Positions 211 through 25,095 of a stretch of DNA of 25,138 bases are shown piece after piece. This stretch comes from a virus. The notes beneath the pieces are model-generated. The model saw nothing but the letters and a program-made list of their open reading frames with translations, made no database searches and was not told the origin of the DNA. Made by a program: the position numbers and the translations under genes. Where the stretch lies: positions 1-25,138 of the IMG/VR virus record IMGVR_UViG_3300049595_002268. One strand, 5' to 3'. Within the stretch, counting starts at the first letter, position 1. Every line of letters begins with the position of its first letter.

Positions 211-216
211 TTGACA
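211..216 (+). promoter_or_regulatory. TTGACA start-associated element (spacer 16 to GTG 233)
   Basis: The hexamer lies 16 nt before the GTG at 233. This is the plus-strand example of the recurring element, and it supports GTG 233 as the start. No Shine-Dalgarno sequence is present, and the spacing leaves no place for a -10 box and leader. Confidence 0.5.
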
Positions 217-232
217 CCTCGTTCGCCCATGC

Positions 233-979
233 GTGGCGACGATCACCCGAAAGTGGAAAAGATGGGTAGCCCTGACTTGCTCTCACGGGTCCGACATTGA
301 CCCCAAAGCCCGCGAGGCCGCGCTGACTTTTATTGATCGCTGGAAACCCGAGCAGCGCCTGCACCTTGGCGATGCCATCGACCTAGCCTGTCTGCGAGCC
401 GGTGCCAGGCGCGATCCTGATGAGCCAGACCGCGCTCAGTCCCTCATGGACGATCTGCTATCTGGCTTGTCTTTCCTGCATGAGCTTCGCCCGACAATCT
501 GGTTTCATGGAAATCATGAGGCGAGAGCCGCCGCCCTATGCCACAGCGGCAATGCCGTGGTCGCCTATGCCGCCGGGGCCGTCATGGCGAAGATGCACGA
601 CGGCCTCGCCAAATACAAAACCGAGATCGTTCCGTATCGCGGCATCCTGCGCGAAAGCGTCCGCGATTTAGGCGGGACGGCATTCCTCCACGGCGCGCTC
701 TTCAACGTCTCAGCCGCCCGCGACACAGCGGAAACGATCGGGCGGCACTGCGTGTTTGGGCATACGCACCGCGTAGCCGTAGAGGCCGCGCGAACGCATG
801 GCGATGCCATTGGCTACAACATCGGATGTCTAACGCGCCTCGACATGGAATACGCGGCGGGAAGGCGCGCAACGTGCGCTTGGAGGCATGGCCTCGCCTA
901 CGGCGAATACCTTCCCGACGGCACCGGCTGCACCGTGAACGTGCTGACGCTTTCCCCCCACTACCGCCTCCCCCTATGA
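233..979 (+). CDS. Calcineurin-like metallophosphoesterase
   Basis: This 248-residue protein shows the metallophosphoesterase motif series: a motif I region T-C-S-H at 15-18, GDAID at 46-50, GNHE at 93-96, a histidine in FLHG at 151-154, and GHTH at 176-179. Such enzymes bind two metal ions and cleave phosphomonoesters or phosphodiesters, including nucleic-acid ends and cyclic nucleotides; the substrate cannot be told here. The usual Asp of motif I (D-x-H) appears as Cys16, which may alter metal binding or activity. The GTG start is chosen because a TTGACA element lies 16 nt upstream; no ATG is in frame nearby. Its stop overlaps the next start as ATGA, so the two genes are probably translationally coupled. 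It opens the only plus-strand cassette at this end. Confidence 0.8.
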   Translation: MATITRKWKRWVALTCSHGSDIDPKAREAALTFIDRWKPEQRLHLGDAIDLACLRAGARRDPDEPDRAQSLMDDLLSGLSFLHELRPTIWFHGNHEARAAALCHSGNAVVAYAAGAVMAKMHDGLAKYKTEIVPYRGILRESVRDLGGTAFLHGALFNVSAARDTAETIGRHCVFGHTHRVAVEAARTHGDAIGYNIGCLTRLDMEYAAGRRATCAWRHGLAYGEYLPDGTGCTVNVLTLSPHYRLPL

Positions 980-1239
980 GCCGCAAACCCAAACAAATCG
1001 GCTCAGACGCCGACCTCGCCGCCTGGTGCGCTGCCCTAGCATCGCCTTCCGTTGCCGCCGAGGCCGTGCCCGCCGGCTGGTTCACTGTGGCCGATTTAGC
1101 CGACCAGACGCAGCGCAGGCCCGTCACGGTGAGCGGGCGAATGCGGGACTTCGTGCGCCAGGGCAAGGCCGAGATGCGCCGTTTCCGAATAATGACCGGG
1201 CGCGGCGTTTATCCCGTGCCGCATTACCGACTGCTTTAG
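976..1239 (+). CDS. Small winged-helix-like protein
   Basis: This is an 87-residue basic protein. The stretch from about residue 33 to 80 (W-F-T-V-A-D-L-A, then a recognition-like R-M-R-D-F-V-R-Q-G, then a short beta-like end G-V-Y-P-V-P-H-Y) has the pattern of a small winged helix-turn-helix, as in many phage DNA-binding proteins. The ATG at 976 overlaps the phosphoesterase stop, which argues against the longer frame that runs upstream through that gene. No enzyme motif is visible. It could regulate this cassette or bind phage DNA. The DNA-binding role is inferred from pattern only. Confidence 0.65.
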   Translation: MSRKPKQIGSDADLAAWCAALASPSVAAEAVPAGWFTVADLADQTQRRPVTVSGRMRDFVRQGKAEMRRFRIMTGRGVYPVPHYRLL

Positions 1240-1256
1240 GCAAGCGAACGACGGCA

Positions 1257-1862
1257 ATGAGCAAGCAATCAGCCCGCAAATCAGTCAAGCCGCGCACCCG
1301 CATTGCCGCTTTTATTGGCGAGTGCGTCATCCGCTACCATCGGACGCACAGCTTGACCTTCGCCCGTGGCGCGACCTTGCGCCTTGGCAAGACCCGTTGC
1401 AGCGGATGGTGCGACGATACCAATATCAAGGTAGCGACAGGCTCCGACTTTACGCATTGGCTCGGAGTGCTGGCCCACGAAAGCTGTCACGCCGACCAAA
1501 TTCGCCAAGACCGCAAATGGTTCAAGCTGGCCGATCAAGGTCTAGCCTGCCTCGACGCATGGTTGCAGGGCGGCAAGGCCGTGCGAGTTCGTAAGGCCAC
1601 GCTGCAATCTATCCGCCTTGAGCATGACTGCGAGGCCCGCAGCATCGCCAAGATTCGCCGCCACAAGCTGCCCATTAACCTTGTGGAATACACACAGAAG
1701 GCCAATGCGTATTTGCTCGGCTACCACGTGACCTTGCGCGAGCGCAAATGGTGCTTCCGCGCCTACCGGGATAAAGCGATCTGGGGTAAGATGCCGACTC
1801 GTTTGTTGCCGCTCAACGAAGTCCTCAAGCCAAAAGCGGAACTGCTTTCCTTGTTCGCATGA
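1257..1862 (+). CDS. Putative HExxH zinc metallopeptidase
   Basis: This 201-residue protein carries H-E-S-C-H at 74-78 within A-H-E-S-C-H-A-D-Q, the classic HExxH zinc-binding and catalytic motif. About 45 residues later L-E-H-D-C-E (121-126) could supply the third, glutamate ligand, as in gluzincin-type peptidases. The C-terminal part (Y-T-Q-K-A-N-A-Y near 145-152, then K-W near 164) fits my recollection of a phage and environmental family of unknown role built around HExxH plus an E-x-D-C-E segment. No signal peptide or membrane helix is seen, so it should act in the cytoplasm. ATG 1257 is chosen because the frame upstream overlaps the previous gene. Its stop overlaps the next start (ATGA). 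The substrate is unknown. Confidence 0.7.
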   Translation: MSKQSARKSVKPRTRIAAFIGECVIRYHRTHSLTFARGATLRLGKTRCSGWCDDTNIKVATGSDFTHWLGVLAHESCHADQIRQDRKWFKLADQGLACLDAWLQGGKAVRVRKATLQSIRLEHDCEARSIAKIRRHKLPINLVEYTQKANAYLLGYHVTLRERKWCFRAYRDKAIWGKMPTRLLPLNEVLKPKAELLSLFA

Positions 1863-2011
1863 CCTTCTGGCCCTTGCTCATCTGCACCCTGTGCTATGTC
1901 GCCACCAGCGCGGGTTTTGCCTTGGAAAAAAACTGGCCGATGGCCGCAATTTTCCTTGGATATTCAGGGGCTAACTTGGGCTTCCTCGCTATTGCTGCGG
2001 GTTGGCGCTAA
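1859..2011 (+). CDS. Small two-helix membrane protein
   Basis: The 50-residue protein begins with an ATG that overlaps the metallopeptidase stop (ATGA). Two hydrophobic segments, roughly residues 3-21 and 30-48, are split by a short charged and aromatic turn (E-K-N-W-P). It is the last gene of the plus-strand cassette and is followed directly by an inverted repeat. It could be a membrane anchor for the preceding peptidase, a holin-like protein or an exclusion protein. There is no sequence signature to choose between them. Confidence 0.6.
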   Translation: MTFWPLLICTLCYVATSAGFALEKNWPMAAIFLGYSGANLGFLAIAAGWR

Positions 2012-2031
2012 CTGTCACAAAGTGACAGTTA
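2009..2031. promoter_or_regulatory. Perfect inverted repeat after the plus-strand cassette
   Basis: Arms of 10 bp (2009-2018 and 2022-2031) are exact reverse complements around a 3-bp AAA centre. The left arm includes the stop codon of the small membrane gene. The short centre and lack of a clear T tract suit a protein-binding operator at least as well as a terminator. Confidence 0.5.
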
Positions 2032-2055
2032 TTGTGCAGAAGTGTATATGTTTTG

Positions 2056-2090
2056 CAAAAACTTAGACACGTTTCCGACAACGTGTTTAA
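2056..2090 (-). terminator. Terminator of the leftward late transcript
   Basis: Inverted repeats at 2063-2073 and 2080-2090 pair over 11 positions with one G-T wobble around a 6-nt loop. On the minus strand the stem is followed within a few bases by five T residues. It lies just past the last minus-strand gene, where it would end the late transcript before it runs into the convergent cassette. No gene is seen in 2012-2102. Confidence 0.6.
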
Positions 2091-2102
2091 GCCATCGACA
2101 TA

Positions 2103-2243
2103 TTAGGCCAGCAGCGTCAGCAAGCGTCTGAACAAACGCCACAAGCTGAACTTCCCCGCAGGGAAACTCGGCGCGTGCCGCTCGACGTAGCCGACCCCGC
2201 CATACGGCCCATAAAAAAGGCCAAGCTCGGTTGATCGGTGCAT
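2103..2243 (-). CDS. Small basic protein at the end of the lysis cassette
   Basis: This is a 46-residue protein with a strong ribosome binding site: AGGAGG ends 6 nt before the ATG at 2243. The upstream in-frame extension lies inside the endolysin gene and is not needed. The protein has a Gly/Tyr-rich N-terminal half and a C-terminal amphipathic, arginine- and leucine-rich stretch (F-R-R-L-L-T-L-L-A). It resembles no family I can name. Its position after the endolysin makes a lysis-accessory or exclusion role possible. It is one of only three genes in the window with a full AGGAGG. Confidence 0.6.
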   Translation of the reverse strand: MHRSTELGLFYGPYGGVGYVERHAPSFPAGKFSLWRLFRRLLTLLA

Positions 2244-2249
2244 AGGTGT

Positions 2250-2255
2250 CCTCCT
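2250..2255 (-). promoter_or_regulatory. Strong Shine-Dalgarno AGGAGG for the 46-residue gene
   Basis: The full consensus stands 6 nt before ATG 2243. It decides the start of this short gene against a much longer in-frame extension. Confidence 0.7.
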
Positions 2256-2292
2256 TTTATCTTCGTAATAACAAAAGCAATCGCTGTGCCGA

Positions 2293-2859
2293 TTAGGCTG
2301 GCAATTCAAAGTGCGGTCGATCCGTCTTGCCGCCCTTCCACCGCCCGCCCCATACAAGGCCAAGCTGCTCGCCAATCTCGCCAGCGCGGGTGTAGTGCTT
2401 GCTTTCCCAGACCACATTTTTTCCGCTGAATAAAGCAAGGTCAATGGCGCGGCCAGTAAGATGTCGGCTGTTGCGCGTCCATGTGACTTTCGGGCCGGGC
2501 TTCGTGCGACCTTTTGCCCAGAGCGCATCCTGCTCGGCCTGCGTCCTGCGGCCTTGGATGACCTTGAAAGTTAAGCCCTCGGCGGCAAGACGGCGCAGCA
2601 ACTCACGGCCCAACTTCTGCAAACGAGGCTCGACTGTGGCGAGGTTTTTCTCGCTGCGGGGGTCAGCGACCCACTCGCTTGCTTTTGCTTCGCTTGTCGG
2701 CTTCGGCGTGGATGCGTTGATGGGCTGCGGCAAGGACTTCGGCAAGGTCGGAGAGATCGAGCTTTTTGATAAGGGCGAGGGCGATGGTGCGTTGGTCGCT
2801 TTTGGGCCAACCTTTGATCCCGCGAATAAGTTCTTGAACCATGTAAATAAGGATTTCAT
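2293..2859 (-). CDS. Endolysin, L-alanyl-D-glutamate peptidase type (M15)
   Basis: This 188-residue lysis enzyme cuts the peptide stem of peptidoglycan. The catalytic domain fills about residues 72-188: R-R-T-Q-A-E-Q-D-A-L-W near 104-114, S-R-H-L-T-G-R-A-I-D-L at 131-141 giving zinc ligands His133 and Asp140, and W-G-G-R-W near 170-174 followed by R-P-H-F-E-L with His183. This matches the VanY/T5-endolysin-like M15 family. The N-terminus has a short amphipathic segment (K-S-L-F-T-W-F-K-N-L-F) and then a Ser/Pro/Lys-rich linker of about 50 residues, unusual for an export-free endolysin and perhaps a membrane-interacting tail. The ATG lies 3 nt after the preceding stop with AGGA adjacent. Confidence 0.88.
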   Translation of the reverse strand: MKSLFTWFKNLFAGSKVGPKATNAPSPSPLSKSSISPTLPKSLPQPINASTPKPTSEAKASEWVADPRSEKNLATVEPRLQKLGRELLRRLAAEGLTFKVIQGRRTQAEQDALWAKGRTKPGPKVTWTRNSRHLTGRAIDLALFSGKNVVWESKHYTRAGEIGEQLGLVWGGRWKGGKTDRPHFELPA

Positions 2860-2862
2860 TTC

Positions 2863-3024
2863 CTAAAAATCAGCGTTGCCCCGGATGCCGATGAAGTTGA
2901 TGCCCTTTTGAAAACTCCCGCGCACAACCAACTTGAGTGACGAGACGAGGCGCACGAACAAGGGGCGCGTGTCAGATGGTTGCGGTTTCGGCGTCAGCGC
3001 GTGCTTCAGCCACCAGCTTTTCAC
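2863..3024 (-). CDS. Small basic protein between lipoprotein and endolysin
   Basis: This 53-residue frame starts at a GTG that overlaps the lipoprotein stop (GTGA), the same coupling used throughout the cassette. It has a basic, tryptophan-containing N-terminus (K-S-W-W-L-K) and a moderately hydrophobic middle, but no clear membrane helix or known motif. A longer reading of this frame would overlap most of the lipoprotein gene and is unlikely. Its function is unknown. Confidence 0.45.
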   Translation of the reverse strand: MKSWWLKHALTPKPQPSDTRPLFVRLVSSLKLVVRGSFQKGINFIGIRGNADF

Positions 3025-3236
3025 GGAAGGATGATCTTGTCGGCGGCAATGGCGGCATCGCTTTCTGCTTTGCCCCACGGACGCCAAAAAAGAAGAAACC
3101 ACGCTTTTTTCTCAAGGTCAGCACCTCCGGTCATGCGCCAGCCAGACCCAGCCAACGGCAAGCCGCCGTCTTTGAGATCGGGCATAGACGCGCAGCCCGT
3201 AAAAAGCAGGGCCGCAATCATGCAGGCCCAGCGCAT
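3021..3236 (-). CDS. Phage lipoprotein, possible outer spanin
   Basis: The 71-residue protein begins with a short lipoprotein signal: basic start, hydrophobic stretch and lipobox L-F-T-G-C at residues 11-15, so Cys15 should be lipidated and the mature protein exported. The mature part is 57 residues and carries W-F-L-L-F-W-R-P-W-G near 50-59. Small lipoproteins next to holin and endolysin genes are often outer-membrane spanins, but the mature part is not obviously proline-rich and no inner-membrane partner stands beside it. The ATG at 3236 shares a base with the holin-like stop (TAATG), and GGGAG upstream in that gene gives a fair ribosome binding site. A longer frame starting further upstream lacks the signal at its N-terminus. 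Confidence 0.7.
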   Translation of the reverse strand: MRWACMIAALLFTGCASMPDLKDGGLPLAGSGWRMTGGADLEKKAWFLLFWRPWGKAESDAAIAADKIILP

Positions 3237-3406
3237 TATTTCTTCTCCCGGCGAAAGACTTCGTAGAGCGAGATGGCAGCAATCACCGCCGAGGCAATCG
3301 AGCCCCATTCCTCTGGTGAGAGTTTCCAGCCGACCGCCGCTGTAAGCGTGGCGAGTCCGGCCCATGTGCTGCGTTCTTTCAGTCTAGCGAGGATCGTGGT
3401 GACCAT
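3236..3406 (-). CDS. Small holin-like membrane protein
   Basis: This is a 56-residue protein. The middle (W-A-G-L-A-T-L-T-A-A-V-G-W, then S-P-E-E-W-G, then I-A-S-A-V-I-A-A-I-S-L-Y) gives two hydrophobic segments around a short polar turn, with charged residues at both ends (K-E-R near 10-12 and R-R-E-K-K at the C-terminus). This is the layout of small phage holins, which time lysis by opening the inner membrane. It starts the lysis cassette, ahead of a lipoprotein and an M15 endolysin. A TTGACA element lies 13 nt before the ATG, with GAGGG also close to the start. Confidence 0.72.
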   Translation of the reverse strand: MVTTILARLKERSTWAGLATLTAAVGWKLSPEEWGSIASAVIAAISLYEVFRREKK

Positions 3407-3419
3407 GCCCTCGCCGGGG

Positions 3420-3425
3420 TGTCAA
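3420..3425 (-). promoter_or_regulatory. TTGACA start-associated element (spacer 13 to ATG 3406)
   Basis: It lies in the 22-bp gap between two genes, 13 nt before the holin-like start. Confidence 0.5.
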
Positions 3426-6255: not shown

Positions 6256-6900
6256 TTACCACGCTGCGACAGGGACGCGCCTCCAAGTATTTACACCAAC
6301 GCAAATGTAAAAATACGGGTCTGAATACGCGATCTGCCCCGTGCTTCCGCTTGTTGTGGGAGTTGTCGGTGCAACTGGTTGCCACTCCAGCTTCACCCCT
6401 AAATAGGTGTCAAGACGCTGTGCGGTTCCGCTTACTCTACGATAAATAAGCTGCTCGGCGTTAAATGTTCTTTCGCTACCATCTGGAGCTTGCGGCGTTG
6501 ATGTGTTGCGGGTTAATTGCACGCCAGCGCCCGAATCGCCGTTTGGCAAAAGCACGCCTGTTACATTGTATTCTTGGACGGCGTTGTCGATTGAGGGGGC
6601 GGAAACGTCAGCAGCGGCAAGCACTACGGCTCCGGTCAAAGTATTCACGCTGGACACGCCCGACGCCGGGGCTGCGCCCCATTCGGGTGCTGTGCCGCCG
6701 CTGTTGACCTTTAGAATTTGGCCTGCGGTGCCGATGCCGAGGCGCTGCCCGCCGCTTGCGTCTCGGTAGAGCATATCGCCGGTTTGCGTAAGCGTAGTCA
6801 GCCCTGCCCCGGCAGCGCCCTGCGGCCCCTGCGGGCCTTGCTCGATGACCTTGATGACATCGGTTGAGGAACCCGTGCGTATTGTGATCGTCTCGCCCAT
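6256..6900 (-). CDS. Collagen-like short tail fibre protein
   Basis: This 214-residue protein begins with a short beta segment, then a brief collagen-type run (G-P-Q-G-P-Q-G-A-A-G-A-G near 28-39), then a Thr/Gly/Val-rich shaft that includes G-D-M-L-Y-R-D-A-S-G-G and V-S-S-V-N-T-L-T-G-A-V-V-L. These motifs are frequent in trimeric phage fibres and fibre adaptors. It lies immediately upstream of the larger fibre gene with a gap of 6 nt, so the two products may form one appendage. The ATG lies four bases after the previous stop; no Shine-Dalgarno or TTGACA element is seen. Confidence 0.72.
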   Translation of the reverse strand: MGETITIRTGSSTDVIKVIEQGPQGPQGAAGAGLTTLTQTGDMLYRDASGGQRLGIGTAGQILKVNSGGTAPEWGAAPASGVSSVNTLTGAVVLAAADVSAPSIDNAVQEYNVTGVLLPNGDSGAGVQLTRNTSTPQAPDGSERTFNAEQLIYRRVSGTAQRLDTYLGVKLEWQPVAPTTPTTSGSTGQIAYSDPYFYICVGVNTWRRVPVAAW

Positions 6901-8311: not shown

Positions 8312-9400
8312 TTAATTTTTGGTGGCTGTTAGGATGCCGCTGTTGTCGATGGAGATTGTCCAAGTGGATGCATCGGGGGATTGCAGCGTGAAACTACTGT
8401 TTGATGGAACAGGCGTTGGCGACGCGCTGCTTATAATGTCTGAGGAAAGGGTAACTCCGCGCCGATAAGTCTGTCTTTTTCCGCCGCCGGCGACTTCGAT
8501 TTCTAATGAGACAGAGGTTGTGCCAGCAGCAACCAAAGCTGCAATTTCGTTGGTCGTAAAATTGACGTTGGCTTGCAGCCCGTAGGGGCCGAGAAGAGTT
8601 GAGCCAACCACCGACACGTTTGAATAATTGCGGTTAGCTGATCCGTTCGCGTATGTCAGAGTGTATTCTTTGCCCGGAGATCCGGTCACAACAATTTGAG
8701 CAATGCCCGAAGCAACCAAACCCGCATTAGCGATGGCTGTTTCGACTTGGCTCGGTGTGGCGTTGTAAGAAAGTTGTCCTGTCGTTGTGGCTGGTAACGT
8801 AACCGTGCCTCCGCCAGAAGTGACTGAGGCAGTGAGGGCCGTTGTTGAAGAAACGGTAGAGGCCAGTGAAAAAGCGTCTTTGCTGTTGCGGATGACGAAA
8901 TAACTCGAGTCGTTTGCGACAGAAGAGGCCGTAAAGCTAAATGCGGTAAGGCTGACCGATTGCCCCGAATACAACCCGTGGTCGGCGGCGGTAAACACAT
9001 TGGCCGAAACACTGCTAACCGTGACGCTGCGGCTCGGAAATTGAATAGCGAATCCCCCAATGACCGGCTTTGGCGACAAGCTGATCTTTTGCTGGGCATT
9101 GGAGCCGCTGCCGCCTGTGACCAGAGACGTGATGGTGGCCGTTACGGCGGTTGCCAGCGGCGACCAAGTCACTTGAAGCGCCGCCGGCGTAGTGCTTCCT
9201 ACGGCAAATTTGACCGTGTTGGCGGAGTAATCGACATAGTCGTATGGCCGCGTGGCATCGCCCGTTGGCTCCAGAAAAAACAACTCGATAGACTCAACAT
9301 CCTCCTCAAAAAAAGCAGCATCACCGGCTGAAAAAGATGAGTCGGGCGAAGCAATAAACGCCCGGCTTTGCGTGTCTAAATAGAATTTGCGGGCCTGCAT
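8312..9400 (-). CDS. Distal tail protein with FCCH-like beta domain
   Basis: The 362-residue protein begins M-Q-A-R-K-F-Y-L-D-T-Q-S-R-A-F. The middle contains F-T-A-A-D-H-G-L-Y-S-G-Q-S-V-S-L, a small beta-barrel motif (FCCH-like) common in phage tail proteins, followed by a serine/threonine-rich part and Y-T-L-T-Y-A-N-G-S. It lies between tail-core genes and fibres, where baseplate hub and fibre-docking parts are usual. ATG 9400 is taken as the start because TTGACA stands 14 nt before it; the upstream in-frame TTG and GTG codons fall within that spacer. Confidence 0.65.
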   Translation of the reverse strand: MQARKFYLDTQSRAFIASPDSSFSAGDAAFFEEDVESIELFFLEPTGDATRPYDYVDYSANTVKFAVGSTTPAALQVTWSPLATAVTATITSLVTGGSGSNAQQKISLSPKPVIGGFAIQFPSRSVTVSSVSANVFTAADHGLYSGQSVSLTAFSFTASSVANDSSYFVIRNSKDAFSLASTVSSTTALTASVTSGGGTVTLPATTTGQLSYNATPSQVETAIANAGLVASGIAQIVVTGSPGKEYTLTYANGSANRNYSNVSVVGSTLLGPYGLQANVNFTTNEIAALVAAGTTSVSLEIEVAGGGKRQTYRRGVTLSSDIISSASPTPVPSNSSFTLQSPDASTWTISIDNSGILTATKN

Positions 9401-9414: not shown

Positions 9415-9420
9415 TGTCAA
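9415..9420 (-). promoter_or_regulatory. TTGACA start-associated element (spacer 14 to ATG 9400)
   Basis: It overlaps the TGA stop of the previous gene and decides between three possible in-frame starts of the downstream gene. Confidence 0.5.
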
Positions 9421-12288: not shown

Positions 12289-12294
12289 TGTCAA
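12289..12294 (-). promoter_or_regulatory. TTGACA start-associated element (spacer 16 to ATG 12272)
   Basis: It contains the TGA stop codon of the preceding gene, so end of one gene and start signal of the tape measure are fused. Confidence 0.5.
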
Positions 12295-13050: not shown

Positions 13051-13278
13051 CTAAACGCCGCCTGTCAGCGCATCGGCCAGCATGGCGTCAATGCTCTGCG
13101 CGCCCTCGGTCCCGCTGTCGATCCATCGCGGAGTGCGGCCATTGCATAGCTCGTCCCAGACAACCATCTGGTTAAGCGCCGCAAGCGGAAAATGCCAGAT
13201 CGCTTGCTCTAGGCTGATGCCGTATTTAGCGACCCGCGCGGCAAGGCAAAGCTGCCAAGCAGGGCGGGCCTTTAGGCT
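13051..13278 (-). CDS. gpT-like extension of the tail assembly chaperone, made by -1 frameshift
   Basis: This frame has no usable start codon of its own near the end of the preceding gene. It is reached by a -1 slip at the heptamer C-CCA-AAA (13278-13284), which joins residue 132 of the upstream protein to 75 residues beginning S-L-K-A-R-P-A-W, for a product of about 207 residues. The extension contains Y-G-I-S-L-E-Q-A-I-W-H-F-P-L-A-A-L-N-Q-M, the type of segment found in lambda gpT-like domains, which bind tail tube subunits and the tape measure during assembly. Reading it as a separate gene from a GTG far upstream would require a 91-base overlap and is less likely. Confidence 0.72.
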   Translation of the reverse strand, partial: SLKARPAWQLCLAARVAKYGISLEQAIWHFPLAALNQMVVWDELCNGRTPRWIDSGTEGAQSIDAMLADALTGGV

Positions 13279-13689: not shown

Positions 13690-13695
13690 TGTCAA
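13690..13695 (-). promoter_or_regulatory. TTGACA start-associated element (spacer 16 to ATG 13673)
   Basis: It overlaps the TGA stop of the upstream gene, as at the tape measure start. Confidence 0.5.
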
Positions 13696-14392: not shown

Positions 14393-14398
14393 TGTCAA
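14393..14398 (-). promoter_or_regulatory. TTGACA start-associated element (spacer 14 to ATG 14378)
   Basis: It lies in an intergenic gap, not over a stop codon, which shows that the hexamer is not simply a by-product of stop-codon context. Confidence 0.5.
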
Positions 14399-15214: not shown

Positions 15215-15220
15215 TGTCAA
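15215..15220 (-). promoter_or_regulatory. TTGACA start-associated element (spacer 16 to ATG 15198)
   Basis: It would leave only 7 nt to the alternative ATG at 15207, so it decides between two starts. Confidence 0.5.
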
Positions 15221-15858: not shown

Positions 15859-16160
15859 TTGCTGTCAGGGCTTTGCAGGGTCAGGTCGATGGTGGCGGTG
15901 TCGGTGTCGATGCCGGTGATGCGGTAGCGGCGGTCTTGAAATTTGACGATGCCGCCGAGGCGGAAGGTCGGTGCGCCTGCTTTCAGAACGGTGGCCGTTA
16001 GCCCCCTCGCCGCTTCAAAGCCGCCTTCTCCGAGTTGGTTGCCGTAAGTCTCTTCTCCGACTACGGCCAGATAGGTGCGCTCGCGGTATTCGATCTGGTC
16101 GCGTATCGTGCCGACGGCCTCGGTGCTGGCGGCGGTGTAAGCCTGGGCGAACTGACTCAT
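15855..16160 (-). CDS. Head-tail adaptor-like protein
   Basis: The 101-residue protein has a helical N-terminal third (Q-A-Y-T-A-A-S-T-E-A-V-G) and a beta C-terminal half with I-V-K-F-Q-D-R-R-Y-R-I-T-G-I-D near 71-85, a pattern seen in small head-completion and stopper proteins of siphophages. Its position between head and tail genes supports such a role. A CTGACA variant lies 13 nt before the ATG inside the glycosyltransferase gene, whose stop overlaps this start (ATGA). Confidence 0.55.
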   Translation of the reverse strand: MSQFAQAYTAASTEAVGTIRDQIEYRERTYLAVVGEETYGNQLGEGGFEAARGLTATVLKAGAPTFRLGGIVKFQDRRYRITGIDTDTATIDLTLQSPDSK

Positions 16161-17944
16161 GCGCTGGGGGCGGTGTCAGCGGGCTTGGGCGCAAGGTCGG
16201 GATTGCGGCGGCGGAAGATTTTCTCGCCGAGCTGGTAGGCTTCGTCCGAGTTCTCCATCGCGTAGGTATCGTCGGACGGCACGGCGGGATTCCAAAAGGG
16301 ATGCTCGTGCTTGAAGACGATCTCGGACGGCACGAGGAGCCCGCTTTTGCCTGCGCGCAGGGAAAACTCGGTGTCGCTGAAAATGCCGGGATAGTCAGGG
16401 GCCAAGATGTTCTGCGCGCCGTAGCCGAGACGCTTGAACGTGGGGCGCGTGACGCAGAACGTGACCATGAGATCGTCGTTGCGGTAGCCGTCTTTGATTT
16501 GCAGGACGGCGGGCTGGCGTGCGTCCACCTTGGCGCGCAAGGCTTCCTCGATGGCAAGATCCCAGTGGAGCGGCGGGAAGACATCATCCTGGGCGGTGAT
16601 GATGATCTGCCCGGTGGCGGCGTTGGTCGCTGCGTTGTAGTTCTGGACGGCAGTTCCGCCCGGACGCTCAAGATTGCCGGCGGGCGAAAGCGCGTGGCGA
16701 AAGCGGGAGAGCAGGCCGACTGATTCCTCGTCATCGGCGCTGAAGCCGAAAATGTATTCAATGCGCTCCGGGTTGGCGGCGGCATCGAGCCAGCGTTTGC
16801 GCGTCATGGCCGCTTGATGGGCGCGGGCGCGGGTCGGGTGGCAAACGCTGATGCTGTATTTGTGGCCTTTGAGCCGGGCGCGTTCGATCTCGTCGGCTTT
16901 GTCTTGCTGCCCCGCCATGCGGAGCCATTGCGTCCAAAGCGCCTCCCCCGCCCAGCCGTAGAGGCCGTCGCGGTGCGTCCACGGTTTATCTATCGGGCGC
17001 GGCAGGGCCATCATGCTGCGGATATAGGCTTCGGCGCTCACCATGTCGCCGAGGTCGAGGTGCATGGCACCGAGTAGGGCCAAGGCTTCGCGGCGGTTGG
17101 GCTGCGTTTTGTAGGCGCTATGCAACGCCGTCATCATGGCTTTGTATTCGGGCGAGTCGGTTTGCAGGATTTCGGGGCGGGCGAGTTCGCAGATGTTTAG
17201 ACAAAGCTCGTAGCGTTCGGTGGCTTTGAGGTCGGGATGGGCCAGCGCCTTCTTGGCCAAGTCCATCGCTTCTGGCTTGCGTCCCTGCCCCATGTATTCG
17301 CCGTGCAGGTGGTAGACCTCCGAGATTGTGCGCTCGGCTTCGGGGATCGACTCCAAGATGGTCAGGTTGCGGTTGCTGCCCTGCTTGGGTTCATCGTCGG
17401 GCAAATGGATCACGGTCGGCTCGTCGCACTTGGCAATGCGGGCGTCGGCGACGAGTTGGAAATTCTCGTGGATGCGATTAACCCACTTGCCTTTGTCGCG
17501 GAGCACGAGGCGCTCGCGGAGGTTGTGGGCGATGCCGCGCCCGGCGACATTGTGGAACAGGGCGAAGGCGTCGAAGTTCTCGCCGTGCTTTTCAAGGAGC
17601 TCGTGCAGGGCGGGCGCGAAGTTTGGCCCCGGCGTATCGTCCGCGTCCACCCACAGCGCCCAAGGTTTGCTGGCAAGGTCGAAGGATTTCTGGCGGGCGG
17701 CGCCGAAGTCATCAACGTGAGGCCACTCGTTTCCGGGGGCGTTGGCATAAACATCATATTTGGCCCCGTGCTTCTGGCACACCTCGGCAATTTTGATGCT
17801 TTTGGCTTCGGCCCCGGTGGCGTGGACTACGACCATCTCGCTGACGGCGGGGGCAAATTGAGTCAAGCAACGGTCAAGCCGTTTGGGTTCGTTGCCGACG
17901 ATGACGCAAAGCGCGATCTGCTCGCGCGGGCTTTGTTTCTCCAT
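16157..17944 (-). CDS. Double-domain glycosyltransferase within the virion operon
   Basis: This 595-residue protein joins two GT-A-like domains. The first (about 1-200) starts A-L-C-V-I-V-G-N-E-P and has W-V-D-A-D-D at 98-103, the metal-binding DxD motif of family 2 transferases; it ends near K-W-V-N-R-I-H-E-N. A helical, repeat-like middle (about 210-370) resembles TPR linkers. The second domain opens Y-S-I-S-V-C-H-P-T-R and carries I-I-I-T-A-Q-D-D-V near 480-488. Both would move sugars from nucleotide donors, perhaps to virion proteins or host surface glycans. ATG 17944 is chosen because the longer frame runs through a terminator and the capsid gene. TTGACA lies 17 nt upstream. Confidence 0.78.
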   Translation of the reverse strand: MEKQSPREQIALCVIVGNEPKRLDRCLTQFAPAVSEMVVVHATGAEAKSIKIAEVCQKHGAKYDVYANAPGNEWPHVDDFGAARQKSFDLASKPWALWVDADDTPGPNFAPALHELLEKHGENFDAFALFHNVAGRGIAHNLRERLVLRDKGKWVNRIHENFQLVADARIAKCDEPTVIHLPDDEPKQGSNRNLTILESIPEAERTISEVYHLHGEYMGQGRKPEAMDLAKKALAHPDLKATERYELCLNICELARPEILQTDSPEYKAMMTALHSAYKTQPNRREALALLGAMHLDLGDMVSAEAYIRSMMALPRPIDKPWTHRDGLYGWAGEALWTQWLRMAGQQDKADEIERARLKGHKYSISVCHPTRARAHQAAMTRKRWLDAAANPERIEYIFGFSADDEESVGLLSRFRHALSPAGNLERPGGTAVQNYNAATNAATGQIIITAQDDVFPPLHWDLAIEEALRAKVDARQPAVLQIKDGYRNDDLMVTFCVTRPTFKRLGYGAQNILAPDYPGIFSDTEFSLRAGKSGLLVPSEIVFKHEHPFWNPAVPSDDTYAMENSDEAYQLGEKIFRRRNPDLAPKPADTAPSA

Positions 17945-17961: not shown

Positions 17962-17967
17962 TGTCAA
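17962..17967 (-). promoter_or_regulatory. TTGACA start-associated element (spacer 17 to ATG 17944)
   Basis: It stands between the capsid-gene terminator and the glycosyltransferase start. A -10 box at promoter spacing would fall on the start codon itself. Confidence 0.5.
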
Positions 17968-18934: not shown

Positions 18935-19306
18935 TTAGTAGACGGAGGCCATGATCTCCCGCTTGTTGTTGCGGTAGTATTCGACGGCTTCGGCGCCAGA
19001 AAGGTTGTTGAAAATTTGGGCGGGCGTCAGTTCTTGCTCGGCAGACACGACAGCCACGGGCTCAAGGCCAACAGAAGCGACGATTGCCGCAGCTTGTTCA
19101 CCAGCACTTTTGGACGCGGCAAGGAGATCATTGATCTGCTCGTCCTTGGATGCGCTTTCGGCGGTGAGGCGCTCGACTTCGGCCTTGAGGGTTTCAATTT
19201 CCTTGGCGATGTCCTCGCTGGCTTGCGCCTGCGCGGCTTCGGCTTCGACTTTGGCGGCGAGGTCGGCCTGGAGGGCGTCAACCTTCGCTTGAAGTTCGGC
19301 GTTCAT
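18935..19306 (-). CDS. Nested scaffold protein, short form (internal start)
   Basis: A second in-frame ATG at 19306 (residue 241) has TTGACA 17 nt upstream and GGAAG 7 nt before it. The product would be 123 residues and start at the first heptads of the coiled coil. Whether one or both internal starts are used cannot be told; the presence of both motif and a Shine-Dalgarno-like sequence makes this the better candidate for a free scaffold. Confidence 0.45.
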   Translation of the reverse strand: MNAELQAKVDALQADLAAKVEAEAAQAQASEDIAKEIETLKAEVERLTAESASKDEQINDLLAASKSAGEQAAAIVASVGLEPVAVVSAEQELTPAQIFNNLSGAEAVEYYRNNKREIMASVY

Positions 19307-19429
19307 GTTATCTTCCGAAGAAGTGTCAACCGCCTCGTCAGCGACGGGGGCTTCGACAATGGGCTCCGCGACAACTTCGGCGGGAGCGGCTTCTTCGGCC
19401 TTGATGGTTTTGGTCGATTTACGGGCCAT
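18935..19429 (-). CDS. Nested scaffold protein, long form (internal start)
   Basis: An in-frame ATG at 19429 (residue 200 of the protease) is preceded by TTGACA with a 14-nt spacer, the same arrangement as at gene starts here. It begins exactly where the protease domain ends and would yield a 164-residue protein consisting of the Ala/Glu linker and the coiled-coil scaffold. Lambda makes Nu3 from an internal start in gene C in the same way. This is inference from the motif and domain edge. Confidence 0.45.
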   Translation of the reverse strand: MARKSTKTIKAEEAAPAEVVAEPIVEAPVADEAVDTSSEDNMNAELQAKVDALQADLAAKVEAEAAQAQASEDIAKEIETLKAEVERLTAESASKDEQINDLLAASKSAGEQAAAIVASVGLEPVAVVSAEQELTPAQIFNNLSGAEAVEYYRNNKREIMASVY

Positions 19430-20026
19430 AGAGTTTTGGAAAGTGTCAAAGCGCGCACGGGCGGCTTCGGGGGTGATGGAGGCGGCGGCTTCGATGCCGT
19501 CTTCGATGGCGTCGGCAAAACCGAGGGCCACGGCTTCGGTGGCATCGAGCCACGTTTCGTCATCCATCATTTGCGCGACTTGCTCGGCTTCCATCCCGGT
19601 CTTGCGGACGTAAGCGTTGACCAGAGTGGCCTTGAGCTTGTCGAGGATGTCGGCTTCTTTGCGGAGTTCGTCGGCATCGCCCATCGTCATGCCCCACGGG
19701 TTGTGGATCATCACGAGCGCGTTGTCGGCAATCAGCGTTTCGTCGCCAGCCATAGCGATGACCGAGGCCATCGACGCCGCAAGTGCATCAATGTGAACGA
19801 CTAAGCCGCCTTTGTGCCGACGTAGCGCGTTGTAGATTGCGGCTCCTTCGACAACTGATCCGCCGACAGAATTGATGCGGAGGTGAACACGCTGACCGGA
19901 AAGTTTTTTGAGTTCGGCAAGAAATGTTTTGGCGCTAACCCCACCAAAGCCGATCTCATCATAAATGGCAATTTCGGCTTCGCCGTCTGCGGTCTGTTGA
20001 ATTGCATACCAGTGGCGCGCGTTCAT
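18935..20026 (-). CDS. ClpP-type prohead protease with C-terminal scaffold
   Basis: In this 363-residue protein, residues 1-190 form a ClpP-type serine protease: N-S-V-G-G-S-V near 52-58, A-A-S-M-A-S with nucleophile Ser85, and V-M-I-H-N-P with His108; an Asp near 172 would complete the triad. From residue 200 onward a low-complexity Ala/Glu stretch leads to a coiled coil (M-N-A-E-L-Q-A-K-V-D-A-L from 241) and a conserved-looking end (T-P-A-Q-I-F-N-N-L). It should process the prohead and scaffold the capsid, like lambda gpC with Nu3. ATG 20026 overlaps the portal stop (ATGA) and has TTGACA 14 nt upstream; the 52-codon upstream extension lies inside the portal gene. Confidence 0.85.
   Translation of the reverse strand: MNARHWYAIQQTADGEAEIAIYDEIGFGGVSAKTFLAELKKLSGQRVHLRINSVGGSVVEGAAIYNALRRHKGGLVVHIDALAASMASVIAMAGDETLIADNALVMIHNPWGMTMGDADELRKEADILDKLKATLVNAYVRKTGMEAEQVAQMMDDETWLDATEAVALGFADAIEDGIEAAASITPEAARARFDTFQNSMARKSTKTIKAEEAAPAEVVAEPIVEAPVADEAVDTSSEDNMNAELQAKVDALQADLAAKVEAEAAQAQASEDIAKEIETLKAEVERLTAESASKDEQINDLLAASKSAGEQAAAIVASVGLEPVAVVSAEQELTPAQIFNNLSGAEAVEYYRNNKREIMASVY
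19324..19329 (-). promoter_or_regulatory. TTGACA element before internal ATG 19306
   Basis: It occurs inside coding sequence with a 17-nt spacer to an in-frame ATG at the start of the coiled coil. Confidence 0.45.
19444..19449 (-). promoter_or_regulatory. TTGACA element before internal ATG 19429
   Basis: It occurs inside coding sequence with a 14-nt spacer to an in-frame ATG at the boundary between protease and scaffold. Confidence 0.45.
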
Positions 20027-21516
20027 TGCGCTTGCTGCGGTGTCAATGCGCTGCCGTTGTTTGTCGGCGGTGCAGGGTTGGGATTGAAAGTGGCAATGCT
20101 GTCGGCGCTGATGCCAAACTCGGCGGACAAGTCGGCCAGATATTTGGCCTCGACGGCGCGCTGGCGAAGCTGGTCTTTCCACTCAAGGCCGCGCTCGCTG
20201 TAGTCCTCGGAGTAAGTGCGCAGGCCGGCGCGGACATCGTTGAGGTTGGCTTGTGCTTCGCGTCCGTAGTCCACGCTTGCAGCCGCCGGGCGCTGCCATT
20301 CGACGCGCCACCAATTTTCGTTCTGCGGAATGAGGCCGCGCTGCATACCAAGCGTGATGACGTGGGCCCACACGCGGGAGCAGAGGCGGTCGATGAGCAG
20401 GGCTTGGCGCTGCTCAAAGGTGCGTTGCGCGCGAACCAACACGGCGCGCAAGGCCGCACCGCCCGCATCGGCGGGACGCGCGGCAAATTCCCACGGCACG
20501 CCGATGTTGAGGCAGACTTCTCTCAAGAGAAGGTCGCAGAAGTCGCGGAAGTTTTGCGTGGGGCGGTTGGATGTCCACGAGATCAGGTCTTCGCCCATGC
20601 CGAGGCGCGGGATGGCGCCGCCTGCGTTTCCGAGGCTTTCGACGGTGACCTCGCTGTTGTCTTGGCTGTTGACGGAGTGGGTCGCCTCGCCAAAGAAATC
20701 CGCGCCTTGCGGGTTGCTCGACTTGATGGCGAGGGCGATGTAGGAGGAAATTTTGAGCGCCATCTTCTCAAACGAGATGGCGTCCGACACATCGCGGAGG
20801 TGGTTGATGGACGGGGCGAGCGGCGTGACGTAGCGGAGCTCGTCGCCCTGGCTGGCCTCGCCAACGTGGATGAGTTGCTGCGCCGGGATGTCCTCAAAAC
20901 GCTGCGCGGGGTCAACGCCGTCGCCAACCAGATGGCGGTAGAAGATCGGGCGTAGCTGCGGATTGACCACCACGCCGTCGATGATGTTCTGCGCGCCTTC
21001 GCGGGCGGTCGGGTTACTCGGCTCGTAGATCGAGGAGCGGGCATCGCCAATGCGGTGGGCAAGGATAAGTTGCAACGCGGGATACCCGGTCGATTGTGCC
21101 GTGGCGCGGAAGAACACTTCGCCGTCGCGGTCGATAGCGACCGAGGCGATGCGCTGCATCTCGCGCCAAGTGTAGCGGCCTTGGATGTCGGCCACGCGCG
21201 ACCATTGCTCAAAGAAAGTTTCGGCGGCATTGTCCCATGCTTCATCTCCGCTGCGCGCCTGCGGGCGGATGCCTGTGCCTGTGGCGTATCTGGCCTTCTC
21301 GCAAATCAGCCCACGGACAAAGGGCATATTGTTGTAGACCCAGCGGCTCAACTTCATCAGCCGCTCGCGGTCGGCGCCGGATACGTCGATATGGCTGTCG
21401 GTCGCCGTGGCGTTGTAAGGGAATCGACGCTGAATCGAAGGCCGCGCGGCATCGTAGCTTTGCGCCTTGGGCGAGAATGCTTTCGTTACCAGTTTCCAGC
21501 GGTCGGCGAGTTTCAT
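20023..21516 (-). CDS. Portal protein (GpB/phage_portal_2 type)
   Basis: This 497-residue protein would form the dodecameric ring at the capsid vertex through which DNA passes. Typical features are the N-terminal R-R-F-P-Y-N-A-T-A-T-D, then L-M-K-L-S-R-W-V-Y-N-N-M-P-F-V-R-G near 53-69, T-G-T-G-I-R-P near 80-86, R-D-G-E-V-F-F-R near 129-136, I-D-G-V-V-V near 179-184, and R-Y-V-T-P-L-A near 227-233 followed by the clip and stem region. This matches the lambda gpB-type portal family. The C-terminal 40 residues are Pro/Asn/Gln-rich. ATG 21516 shares one base with the previous stop (TGATG); coupling likely drives its translation, as no ribosome binding site is seen. Confidence 0.9.
   Translation of the reverse strand: MKLADRWKLVTKAFSPKAQSYDAARPSIQRRFPYNATATDSHIDVSGADRERLMKLSRWVYNNMPFVRGLICEKARYATGTGIRPQARSGDEAWDNAAETFFEQWSRVADIQGRYTWREMQRIASVAIDRDGEVFFRATAQSTGYPALQLILAHRIGDARSSIYEPSNPTAREGAQNIIDGVVVNPQLRPIFYRHLVGDGVDPAQRFEDIPAQQLIHVGEASQGDELRYVTPLAPSINHLRDVSDAISFEKMALKISSYIALAIKSSNPQGADFFGEATHSVNSQDNSEVTVESLGNAGGAIPRLGMGEDLISWTSNRPTQNFRDFCDLLLREVCLNIGVPWEFAARPADAGGAALRAVLVRAQRTFEQRQALLIDRLCSRVWAHVITLGMQRGLIPQNENWWRVEWQRPAAASVDYGREAQANLNDVRAGLRTYSEDYSERGLEWKDQLRQRAVEAKYLADLSAEFGISADSIATFNPNPAPPTNNGSALTPQQAQ
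20041..20046 (-). promoter_or_regulatory. TTGACA start-associated element (spacer 14 to ATG 20026)
   Basis: It lies within the last codons of the portal gene. It supports the short protease start that overlaps the portal stop. Confidence 0.5.
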
Positions 21517-21851: not shown

Positions 21852-21857
21852 TGTCAA
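21852..21857 (-). promoter_or_regulatory. TTGACA start-associated element (spacer 15 to ATG 21836)
   Basis: The TTG of this hexamer would be taken as a start codon by simple ORF calling; the motif argues for ATG 21836 instead. Confidence 0.5.
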
Positions 21858-21899: not shown

Positions 21900-21933
21900 G
21901 ATGGCGAAACGAGGTGCAACTCGTCCCGCCATC
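21900..21933 (+). promoter_or_regulatory. Hairpin in the HNH gene leader
   Basis: The outer stem GATGGCG (21900-21906) pairs with CGCCATC (21927-21933), a 2x2 internal loop follows, and the inner stem ACGAG (21909-21913) pairs with CTCGT (21920-21924) around a 6-nt loop. It begins a few bases past the -10 box, so it would form the 5' end of the mRNA. It could stabilise the message or control translation, as leader hairpins do in some phage homing-endonuclease genes. Confidence 0.55.
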
Positions 21934-21954
21934 TAACCTCAAACATGAGCGAAC

Positions 21955-22770
21955 ATGAATGAAGCTGACTCGACTGTAATGTCACGGAATGCGGCAGACA
22001 AGGACGCCATTCGGCGCGCCAAGGCCGCAAAATATAGGCGCGAGTGGCTTTCTCGTCTTAAGCAAGACCCTGAAAAATATGCTGCTTTTTTAGAGAAAGA
22101 TCGGCAGCGATGTATTCTTAGGCAACAGCGCCTTGGAGACCAAATCCGCGAAAGGGACAGAAAGAATTACGCCAAAGATCCTACGCGCAAACTTGCGTCG
22201 GCAACTCGCTATTATCACGAAAACAAAAAAAGCGACCCTTCCTTTATTCAGCACAAGCGCGAACTTGCGAAGAAAAGATACGAGCGAGACAAGTTGAATC
22301 CCAAACTGATGGCTCGCCGAACGGGCTGGCGCAAAAAATGGAGAGAAGGGGTTTTTTCTGATTCCGAGAGGCTGGCACTGCAAAGAAAGAAGCGCGCAAA
22401 GTATGCCCGCGTAAAAAGAAAAACCGACCCAATGTTTCGCATGGCGTCACACTTGCGCGCCCGTCTTTGCTCTCTTTTGTGCGGCAAATCAAAACAAGCT
22501 CCGACTCTGGCGCTTATCGGGTGCTCTTTAGACGCTTTGCGTAAGCATTTGGAGTCGCGTTTTGATAGGCGCATGAATTGGGACAACTACGGAAGCTATT
22601 GGCACGTTGACCACATTGTTCCGCTTTGCGCTTTTGATCTTTCAGACGGAAGGCAGCTTGCCTTGGCAATGAACTGGCAAAACCTTCAACCTCTTGAGGC
22701 AATAGCCAACAAGAGCAAAAACGGCAAAATCACGCATCCTCAACTTCATTTGCCGCTATTGCAGGCTTGA
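21955..22770 (+). CDS. HNH endonuclease, likely homing type
   Basis: In this 271-residue protein, residues 1-180 are very rich in Lys/Arg and look like extended DNA-binding helices. The C-terminal domain has W-H-V-D-H-I-V-P-L at 216-224 (His217, Asp219, His220), N-W-Q-N-L-Q-P-L at 240-247 and N-K-S-K at 252-255: an HNH nuclease core that cuts DNA with one bound metal. It lies on the opposite strand to all its neighbours, has its own promoter, is richer in A and T than they are, and its last 41 bases overlap the end of the terminase gene. This suits a free-standing homing endonuclease. An HNH next to terminase can also help packaging (as in HK97), but such genes are usually co-directional. Confidence 0.82.
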   Translation: MNEADSTVMSRNAADKDAIRRAKAAKYRREWLSRLKQDPEKYAAFLEKDRQRCILRQQRLGDQIRERDRKNYAKDPTRKLASATRYYHENKKSDPSFIQHKRELAKKRYERDKLNPKLMARRTGWRKKWREGVFSDSERLALQRKKRAKYARVKRKTDPMFRMASHLRARLCSLLCGKSKQAPTLALIGCSLDALRKHLESRFDRRMNWDNYGSYWHVDHIVPLCAFDLSDGRQLALAMNWQNLQPLEAIANKSKNGKITHPQLHLPLLQA

Positions 22771-24511
22771 TGATGTTCCCGTATTCGGCCAGCGCCAGAA
22801 TCATTAATTCGCAGTCGAGCATATGGTTTGGCCTGCGCCCGATCTGTTTCCAGATGTAGTTCTCGCGGCCCGTGAGCGGCGAGCGTTTGACCACCTTGCG
22901 GTGCGCGTCGAGGTGCGCTTTGTATTCCTCGCTTGCGTCAGCGGCCACCGTCCACGCGGGGCCTTTGCCGCCGCGCAGCCATTCAAGCACATCCTGCGCG
23001 GCGGGTGACGAGAACAGCATGAGGAAATAGCCGCGCCGATACGGCTTGAGGACGGAGATGGCTTTGCGGAGCGTCTTACCGAATTTCACGCCGTAGCCGT
23101 CCGCGCGGTCTTCGCCCTTGGCCGGGATGTAGCGATTGCGGAGGCAGACATCCAGCACCTCGTCGGTGCGAAAGCCTGAGTCCACCACCACGAGCTTTGC
23201 CATCGTGCCGCCGATGTTGCGTTGCTGGTCAAGGCCGAGTTCCTGCACCTTAAACTCCAGATCCGCCCAGGTGGTGAGTCGGCCTTCGTCCACAAGTTTG
23301 CTGCTGCCGTCTTTGGCGAAGGCGCGACAGGCGAAGTAGAAACAATCCTGCTGAACGTCCACGGCCATGATGCGGGCGGTGCCTTCTTCGGGCTCGGTGC
23401 GGAGGTTGTATTCGCCAACGGTGAGCGGGCGGGATTCGTCGGTCATGGCATCTTCCCACGGCTCGGCGAGGATGCTGTTGACGAAATCTTGCAGGCCCAT
23501 GAGCGAGGACTTGTCTTGCAGGAATTTCACGGCCAGCGCGCCGAAGCTGCGGCGAACCGAGTAAAGCGCGGACAAGTGGTAGCTGCGATGCCCCGGCAAT
23601 GCGTTGGCGTTCTCCGCGCGCCATTCCCCTCCCCGCAGCATCTTGGTTTTGAGTGCGTCGGTGATATGGCCGTTGCAATGCGGACATTCAAGGCGGGCGG
23701 TTTCGCGGACGCGCTTCAGATCCCATTGGTTTTGGTCAATGCGGGCGTCATCGTCCCACTTCATCATCGGCCACGAAAGCAGGGTCATCTCGCCGCAATG
23801 CGGGCACGGCAACCAGAAGCGGCGCTGGTCGCCTTCTAGCCACGCCTTCCAGATCGAGCCTTCCTGAGTCGTGGGGGTGCTGGTCATCACGATGAGGTGC
23901 ATCGGGAAGGACGCGACACGCTGGACGGCAAGCTGCACGGCAGCGGCTTCCTGCTTGGTCTTGGTTTTGTATTTGTCCACCTCGTCCAAGCAGAGAAGCG
24001 AGATGGAGCGGCCCGCGAGGTTGCCGGGGCTGTTGCTGCCGATGAACCAGAGATGCATCCGCGCAAACGCTTGGTCGAGGTTCTTGAATTTGTCTTTGTT
24101 GCGCGGGAGTTGAGCGCGCAGAACCTCGTTGTCATCAATCATCACTTGCCAGCGCGACTCGGAAAACGATTGGGCGTTGGTCTGGGTGTCGAGCACCCAC
24201 AGCGCGGGAGCCGGGGCGCGGACGAGGCGGTAGGCCATGCCTACTTGGATGGCCGTGCTTTTTGCCACCTGGGCGCCGCAGAGCAGCGCCATCGAGCGGA
24301 CGCCGCTCGCAGGGTGGAAGCAGTCAAGCCACTCGCGCATATACGGATAACTGCGGACGCGGAACGGCCCCGGTGACGAGGTGAAGCGGGACGAGAAAGA
24401 CAAGTTGGCCTCGGCCCACTCGGTCACGCTTTGGCGCGGATGAGGCACCCATTGGGCCCGCCACATCGCCAGCGCCTTCTCGCGGCTGTCAGGAATCCAC
24501 GCGCAGCGCAT
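22730..24511 (-). CDS. Terminase large subunit (GpA family)
   Basis: This 593-residue packaging motor and nuclease has an ATPase domain with C-G-A-Q-V-A-K-S-T at 78-86 (Walker A-like), L-L-C-L-D-E-V-D at 172-179 (Walker B) and T-S-T-P at 210-213 (coupling motif). Two C-P-H-C knuckles (236-239, 276-279) are typical of GpA. The nuclease domain has acidic residues Asp385 in V-D-V-Q, Asp444 in V-V-V-D-S-G-F and Asp566 near the end. It cuts concatemers and pumps DNA into the prohead through the portal encoded downstream. The start overlaps the small subunit gene by 23 bases, with ACAGG close by. Confidence 0.93.
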   Translation of the reverse strand: MRCAWIPDSREKALAMWRAQWVPHPRQSVTEWAEANLSFSSRFTSSPGPFRVRSYPYMREWLDCFHPASGVRSMALLCGAQVAKSTAIQVGMAYRLVRAPAPALWVLDTQTNAQSFSESRWQVMIDDNEVLRAQLPRNKDKFKNLDQAFARMHLWFIGSNSPGNLAGRSISLLCLDEVDKYKTKTKQEAAAVQLAVQRVASFPMHLIVMTSTPTTQEGSIWKAWLEGDQRRFWLPCPHCGEMTLLSWPMMKWDDDARIDQNQWDLKRVRETARLECPHCNGHITDALKTKMLRGGEWRAENANALPGHRSYHLSALYSVRRSFGALAVKFLQDKSSLMGLQDFVNSILAEPWEDAMTDESRPLTVGEYNLRTEPEEGTARIMAVDVQQDCFYFACRAFAKDGSSKLVDEGRLTTWADLEFKVQELGLDQQRNIGGTMAKLVVVDSGFRTDEVLDVCLRNRYIPAKGEDRADGYGVKFGKTLRKAISVLKPYRRGYFLMLFSSPAAQDVLEWLRGGKGPAWTVAADASEEYKAHLDAHRKVVKRSPLTGRENYIWKQIGRRPNHMLDCELMILALAEYGNIIKPAIAANEVEDA

Positions 24512-25076
24512 TGCCTGTATTGCTTAACGTCGAGAAGACTTGCTCCAAGTAGTCGGCTACGGCATCGCGGGCCAGTTCGGGGTCGTGAGGGTTGGCTGCC
24601 ATAGCGATGGCGCCGGGCATGGCTTCAAGCAGGGCGCGGAGCTTGCCGACCTCCTCGGCAATGACGGTTTGCACTTGATCCCTGTGCATGAGGTTTTGCG
24701 CCTCTTGCTCGGAGCGCACGAGGTCGCGCTTGCGGATCTCGTGAGCCTCCTCGGCGTCTTTCACCGTGCGGCTGGCGGCGCTGCGCTCTTGGATCGTGCT
24801 GGCCCGCTCAAAGTCATTGACCGCTATGCGGCGAAGCTTGTCGGTGACGGCCAGATCATCGGGCAGTTCGGGCAGGGCGGAGAGGCCGATGGGCTCTGGG
24901 GTCGGGGTTGGCCCGGCGCTGACCTTGGTGCGTTTGGTGCTTTGGTTAACCCGTCGCCATGCCAGCGCGTCTTCAACGCTGGTCAGTGGCATCCCGCGCT
25001 TGGCGGCTTTGGCGACGGCTTGCTGGCTGATGCCAAGCGCCTTCGCCATTTGACCTTGAGACAACCCGTTCCCCAC
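24489..25076 (-). CDS. Terminase small subunit
   Basis: In this 195-residue protein, an N-terminal helix-turn-helix (L-S-Q-G-Q-M-A-K-A-L-G-I-S-Q-Q-A-V-A-K-A near 5-24) would recognise the packaging site. A linker with K-R-T-K and a proline stretch leads to a long helical region (L-R-R-I-A-V-N-D-F-E-R-A-S, then A-E-E-A-H-E-I-R-K-R) that would oligomerise and contact the large subunit. This is the gpNu1-like arrangement and it lies directly before the GpA gene. GTG 25076 is chosen because TTGACA lies 13 nt upstream; an in-frame TTG at 25085 and an out-of-frame ATG at 25089 are less likely. Confidence 0.8.
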   Translation of the reverse strand: MGNGLSQGQMAKALGISQQAVAKAAKRGMPLTSVEDALAWRRVNQSTKRTKVSAGPTPTPEPIGLSALPELPDDLAVTDKLRRIAVNDFERASTIQERSAASRTVKDAEEAHEIRKRDLVRSEQEAQNLMHRDQVQTVIAEEVGKLRALLEAMPGAIAMAANPHDPELARDAVADYLEQVFSTLSNTGNALRVDS

Positions 25077-25089
25077 AACCCACAACCAT

Positions 25090-25095
25090 TGTCAA
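25090..25095 (-). promoter_or_regulatory. TTGACA start-associated element (spacer 13 to GTG 25076), in a hairpin loop
   Basis: The hexamer lies in the 9-nt loop between ACAACC and GGTTGT arms (25082-25087 and 25097-25102), ahead of the first packaging gene. This is the only case where the element is clearly framed by an inverted repeat. Confidence 0.45.

Follow-up and report, generated by a model that had tools for sequence, protein, structure and literature searches.

A TTGACA element at near-constant distance before late-gene start codons in a group of phages, a candidate phage-specific translation-start signal

The DNA analyzed here, hereafter the window, is a 25,138-nucleotide (nt) phage stretch (IMG/VR record IMGVR_UViG_3300049595_002268), in which the hexamer TTGACA recurs shortly before start codons. 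Counting on both strands, we found 17 TTGACA sites, 13 of which lie 13–17 nt before a start codon of the same strand, whereas four, at 6408 (−), 9958 (+), 12592 (+) and 21868 (+), are without one. Two CTGACA variants lie 13 nt before the starts at 16160 and 13049. Both sets of sites had been put forward in an earlier reading of the letters of the window (the original prediction), and every coordinate proved correct on recount. In window coordinates, the sites preceding a start codon and the gene carrying several of them are as follows:

211..216, plus strand: TTGACA, spacer 16 nt, start 233 (GTG) of a metallophosphoesterase-like gene (233-979); site kept in orthologues
3420..3425, minus strand: TTGACA, spacer 13 nt, start 3406 of a small gene; many relatives have a GC hairpin in this spacer
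9415..9420, minus strand: TTGACA, spacer 14 nt, start 9400 of a tail-region gene (8312-9400)
12289..12294, minus strand: TTGACA, spacer 16 nt, start 12272 of the tape-measure gene
13063..13068, minus strand: CTGACA variant, spacer 13 nt, start 13049
13690..13695, minus strand: TTGACA, spacer 16 nt, start 13673
14393..14398, minus strand: TTGACA, spacer 14 nt, start 14378
15215..15220, minus strand: TTGACA, spacer 16 nt, start 15198
16174..16179, minus strand: CTGACA variant, spacer 13 nt, start 16160
17962..17967, minus strand: TTGACA, spacer 17 nt, start 17944 of a glycosyltransferase-like gene; spacer hairpin whose stems differ among relatives
18935..20026, minus strand: ClpP-type head maturation protease gene, preceded by one copy of the element and containing two more
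19324..19329, minus strand: TTGACA, internal and in frame, spacer 17 nt, ATG 19306 (Met241 of the protease gene)
19444..19449, minus strand: TTGACA, internal and in frame, spacer 14 nt, ATG 19429 (Met200 of the protease gene)
20041..20046, minus strand: TTGACA within the 3' end of the portal gene, spacer 14 nt, start 20026 of the ClpP-type head protease, which overlaps the portal stop as ATGA
21852..21857, minus strand: TTGACA, spacer 15 nt, start 21836
25090..25095, minus strand: TTGACA, spacer 13 nt, start 25076 of the terminase small subunit

By itself, the TTGACA count of the window is unremarkable, as dinucleotide shuffles lead to an expectation of 10.4 ± 3.3 and 5 of 100 shuffles reach 17. 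Since the count alone is within reach of chance, the signal resides in the positions of the sites. As the starts used in the original prediction were possibly picked with the motif in mind, we re-called the starts of the window from coding potential only (n = 28). Six of the 17 TTGACA sites were still located 12–17 nt before one of these starts, as compared to a mean of 0.055 and a maximum of 3 in 20,000 random placements (binomial p about 2e-11), and TTGACA was the top hexamer in this distance range.

A terminase search provided 77 related viral loci, and a second search started from a diverged member added further groups. Before 300 dereplicated coding-potential starts from 78 sequences, TTGACA was the most enriched hexamer (59 seen versus 2.25 expected), with its first base at −23 to −19, and CTGACA was also enriched. 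The enriched spacing window spans 5 nt, and nothing comparable was found farther upstream of the starts; the positional enrichment in related phages that the original prediction implied is thus present. Across 203 dereplicated sites, the distance from TTGACA to the start is 12–17 nt, mostly 13–16, and 18 longer records show a coding-strand bias, with 7–13 pattern matches on one strand versus 0–2 on the other. The motif is present in groups A (window-like), B, C and D, among which terminase identity goes down to 38%. It was absent from group E (one short locus) and from group F in the enrichment test, two whole group F records having 2–3 sense matches. At orthologous starts the hexamer and its spacing are retained, while the spacer sequence is scrambled. 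Taken together, these results establish that the element is real and conserved.

The relatives with a known host infect Verrucomicrobia. Using a terminase profile, we searched 388 genomes of the phylum of the contig 'Verrucomicrobia bacterium UBA1412' and obtained prophages, several of which carry the motif in their late region (in L228-L233, 7–9 near-spacing matches per 20 kb versus 1–4 at far spacing), whereas the host genes flanking motif-bearing prophages are without it. On the chromosome of the prophage carrier G129, none of 310 starts sampled from 440 kb has the motif at −28 to −4, with 2 expected by chance, and Shine-Dalgarno-like tetramers barely exceed background (14.5% versus 12.9%). 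Akkermansia and one further verrucomicrobial genome have been listed as poor in Shine-Dalgarno (SD) motifs, their CCUCC being conserved (PMC10783764).

Across 289 genomes of the phylum, near-spacing pattern counts show no clear excess over far spacing, a rough control whose counts are raised in some genomes and which may itself include promoter boxes. A host-wide signal was also considered and rejected: the apparently strong enrichment in many genomes was seen against a backwards control (GTA...ACAGTT), which is a poor control, the counts are much the same at far spacing, and no such motif emerged when motif discovery was run on four apparently enriched genomes. In the genome G159, TTGACA lies 27–32 nt before an ATG in 207 cases versus 73 at 12–17 nt, a nearly three-fold excess of the kind expected from leaderless or short-leader promoters, and a similar tendency is seen in several further genomes. 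Assigning hosts through terminase matches in genome contigs was abandoned, the identity being only about 22–33%.

Within the phages, the element marks late genes and not early ones. It precedes 82 of 259 same-strand genes downstream of the gene family f7 versus 6 of 130 upstream, several of these six being terminase small subunits. The family f7 (e.g. L112:12028-12642, minus strand) is a divergent helix-turn-helix (HTH) family adjoining late genes in motif-bearing phages, and emerged from gene-content comparison as one non-structural family absent from the motif-free set. Its profile matches the majority of the longer loci in groups A, C and D, some of group B and the motif-bearing prophages (weakly in G079), with a weak match in one group F record; no match was obtained in motif-free prophage regions or in the Akkermansia phages Chantilly and Chambord, which lack the motif although the group A integrase has its database matches (25–31% identity) in them alone. 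This co-occurrence of f7 and motif is confounded by common descent. Against curated families, f7 gave no match above cut-off; its similarity to region 4 of sigma-70, to KorA and to further HTH domains was weak and below threshold, and structure models of modest confidence (predicted local distance difference test scores of 69 and 72) had no significant fold match. As the G070 and G186 prophages retain TTGACA although their f7 recognition helix differs (SKQDFHYH versus TRAAVSKR), f7 is only a candidate regulator. The concentration on late genes, together with the absence of the element from the sampled G129 starts, indicates that it is neither a general nor a host start signal: the element is phage-specific, which narrows the original prediction.

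The sequence context of the element is distinctive. An SD motif accompanies 4 of 113 motif starts versus 79 of 477 other starts (p=1e-4), making the two nearly exclusive, and the motif depends on the gap to the upstream stop, being found at 34 of 56 starts with a gap of 10–24 nt versus 9 of 141 tightly overlapping starts. Between −50 and +60, no conserved column was found besides the hexamer, the preceding base and the start codon, and no −10 box. The spacer is GC-rich (65% versus 50% at comparable intergenic starts; p=1.5e-9), the opposite of the AT-rich melting region expected near a transcript start. The proposal that TTGACA does not act as an ordinary −35 element is borne out by these features. 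Spacers are also more structured (unpaired probability 0.39 versus 0.54) and, taken together, fold more than their shuffled versions. Small hairpins are seen in the spacers of the starts at 17944, 9400 and 3406 and of their orthologues, with stems that differ in sequence between relatives (e.g. CCTGC/GCAGG and CCTTGC/GCAAGG).

The 3' ends of the six distinct 16S ribosomal RNA genes found are canonical (GGATCACCTCCTTTCT in sequenced relatives). Complementarity to 16S outside the anti-SD tail, which the original prediction listed for testing, is not supported: the full complement TGTCAA/TGTCAG occurs in only 2 of the 6, at no consistent accessible place. Stray copies of the motif are avoided in group A, both in sense (7 non-functional sites versus 47.5 expected) and in antisense (10 versus 36.4), and on both strands also in groups C, D and F, of which F hardly uses the motif. 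In the prophage set there is no such avoidance (11 versus 11.7 and 7 versus 10.6 expected); the G129 chromosome shows moderate TTGACA avoidance too.

The two in-frame copies inside the head-protease gene provide a view of selection on the element within coding sequence. Among 87 related protease open reading frames (ORFs) of at least 330 amino acids, 53 have three sites and 27 have two, such that 80 of 87 have at least two. At the second internal site, valine is encoded by GTT in 30 of 30 distinct contexts (GTT makes up 18% of valine codons) and, at the first, phenylalanine by TTT in 20 of 20 (TTT usage 44%), these contexts being related sequences and not independent trials. The residue after the constrained codon can be T, I, K or N, each encoded by a codon beginning with A. 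Codon usage and amino-acid change are hence both overridden at the internal TTGACA, which implies selection on the nucleotides. The protease part after Met241 is heptad-like, rich in A, E, K and L, and resembles a coiled-coil C-terminal part, and the internal starts probably yield a nested scaffold protein. In phage lambda, an in-frame internal start in the head-protease gene C gives rise to the C-terminal scaffold Nu3. The arrangement described here is alike in its in-frame internal start sites, and differs in having TTGACA at each internal start and a ClpP-type protease.

Two neighboring genes deserve mention. The gene at 16157-17944 (minus strand) is glycosyltransferase-family-2-like (Pfam PF00535), lies amid the head/tail cluster and is kept in relatives. 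The gene at 21955-22770 (plus strand) is located on the opposite strand between late genes and shows weak similarity to PHROG 9599 (E=1e-4); from its HNH-like appearance, it may be a homing-type insertion.

How might such an element act? Judged from sequence, (T/C)TGACA placed 13–17 nt before the start may be a phage-specific late-gene translation-start element read by a phage factor, a reading to which we give about an even chance. The best reading remains a start signal of the non-SD type or a site that a phage factor recognizes, both of which were among the possibilities originally proposed. We infer action at the mRNA level and reading by a phage-encoded factor as most likely, behind an element whose position, conservation, phage specificity and late bias are direct observations. 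The RNA level is favored because of the fixed start distance, the near-exclusion of SD motifs, the dependence on the stop gap and the internal in-frame use, and also because there is no second box and the spacer is GC-rich and more structured. UUGACA, at about −22 to −14 in the mRNA, would direct initiation at the following AUG or GUG instead of an SD motif; the GC-rich, sometimes hairpin-forming spacer would act along with it, and a factor made during infection would probably read it, since the host chromosome does not use the element. More tentatively, the phages may possess an initiation code of their own, in which UUGACA plus a structured spacer and a phage-made factor redirect host ribosomes to late mRNAs independently of SD.

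Several points weigh against a translation-level signal. No RNA-binding factor for UUGACA was identified, and f7, the only regulator seen to co-occur with the motif, resembles a DNA-binding HTH protein. Restriction to late genes is more typical of transcriptional control, and a purely mRNA-borne signal would not require stray copies to be avoided on both strands, as they are in groups A, C, D and F, although not in the prophage set. A universal spacer hairpin was considered and rejected, as hairpins occur at some genes only.

The main rival is a DNA-level late signal, in which TTGACA would be a one-element late promoter or activator site for a phage late regulator (candidate f7) giving short or no leaders, which we regard as possible but rather unlikely. 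It would account for the late-gene bias, for the both-strand avoidance in the four groups, and for the distribution of f7, which was found in every main group of phages and prophages bearing the motif but in neither the motif-free Akkermansia phages nor the other motif-free prophages, and it would agree with the weak resemblance of f7 to sigma-70 region 4 and KorA; phage T4 offers a precedent for many one-element late promoters. However, the GC-rich spacer offers neither an AT-rich melting region nor a second box, 13–17 nt to the start codon fits neither −35 nor −10 geometry, and internal in-frame copies 120 nt apart are difficult to accommodate. The retention of TTGACA in G070 and G186 with a different f7 helix, and the shared descent behind the co-occurrence, also speak against it.

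That the phages copy a translation-initiation motif of an unsampled host lineage is improbable. In its favor, the window phage may infect a lineage other than those sampled, and some verrucomicrobial genomes are SD-scarce (PMC10783764). Yet the G129 chromosomal starts and the sampled phylum do not display it, and early genes of the same phages do without it.

Cleavage of UUGACA by a sequence-specific endonuclease, generating late mRNAs with uniform short leaders, would fit the fixed distance, the sense-strand use and the many copies per operon, and MazF-type RNases with sites of 5–7 nt are known. We nevertheless consider it very unlikely: a nuclease of this kind did not turn up among the genes examined, the avoidance of antisense copies in groups A, C, D and F would go unexplained, and stray sense sites in prophages are not avoided. 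Finally, chance or an artefact of start-codon choice, with which the TTGACA count in the window would be compatible, is excluded by the motif-agnostic starts, the relatives and the codon-level constraint.

To our knowledge, the TTGACA start element fits no known promoter or ribosome-binding site, and we found no description of it in open-access papers, subscription literature and preprints lying outside the search. Like the SD motif, it is a short sense-strand motif at fixed start distance, used at starts without SD; it differs in being phage-specific, not complementary to the 16S 3' end, and 13–17 nt instead of about 5–9 nt away. It is identical in hexamer to the sigma-70 −35 element, but has no −10 box, nor room for one before the start codon. 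In T4, late promoters (TATAAATA, gp55/gp33) likewise place one short element, read by phage factors, before many late genes; the T4 element is AT-rich with variable start distance, whereas here a GC-rich spacer of near-constant length is found. Initiation in Flavobacterium and other Bacteroidetes relies on A at −3 and −6 plus low structure (PMC6847099); this A-rich, Kozak-like mode is similarly SD-independent, in contrast to which the present element combines a hexamer with a GC-rich, more structured spacer. In leaderless genes, an adjacent −10 box is likewise a short element at fixed distance before the ORF (PMC12340547), but TTGACA is not a −10 sequence and lies too far from the start codon.

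Overall, if the translation-start reading is true, a virus would be using a start signal that is sequence-specific, independent of SD and unused by its host, in a phylum with some SD-scarce members and poorly understood start selection. If it acts at the DNA level, it would be unusual as a late control site, consisting of one element and lacking a melting region. Under either level, these phages provide a testable element with several orthologous natural variants and a candidate regulator, f7, together with better start calling and a predicted nested scaffold protein.

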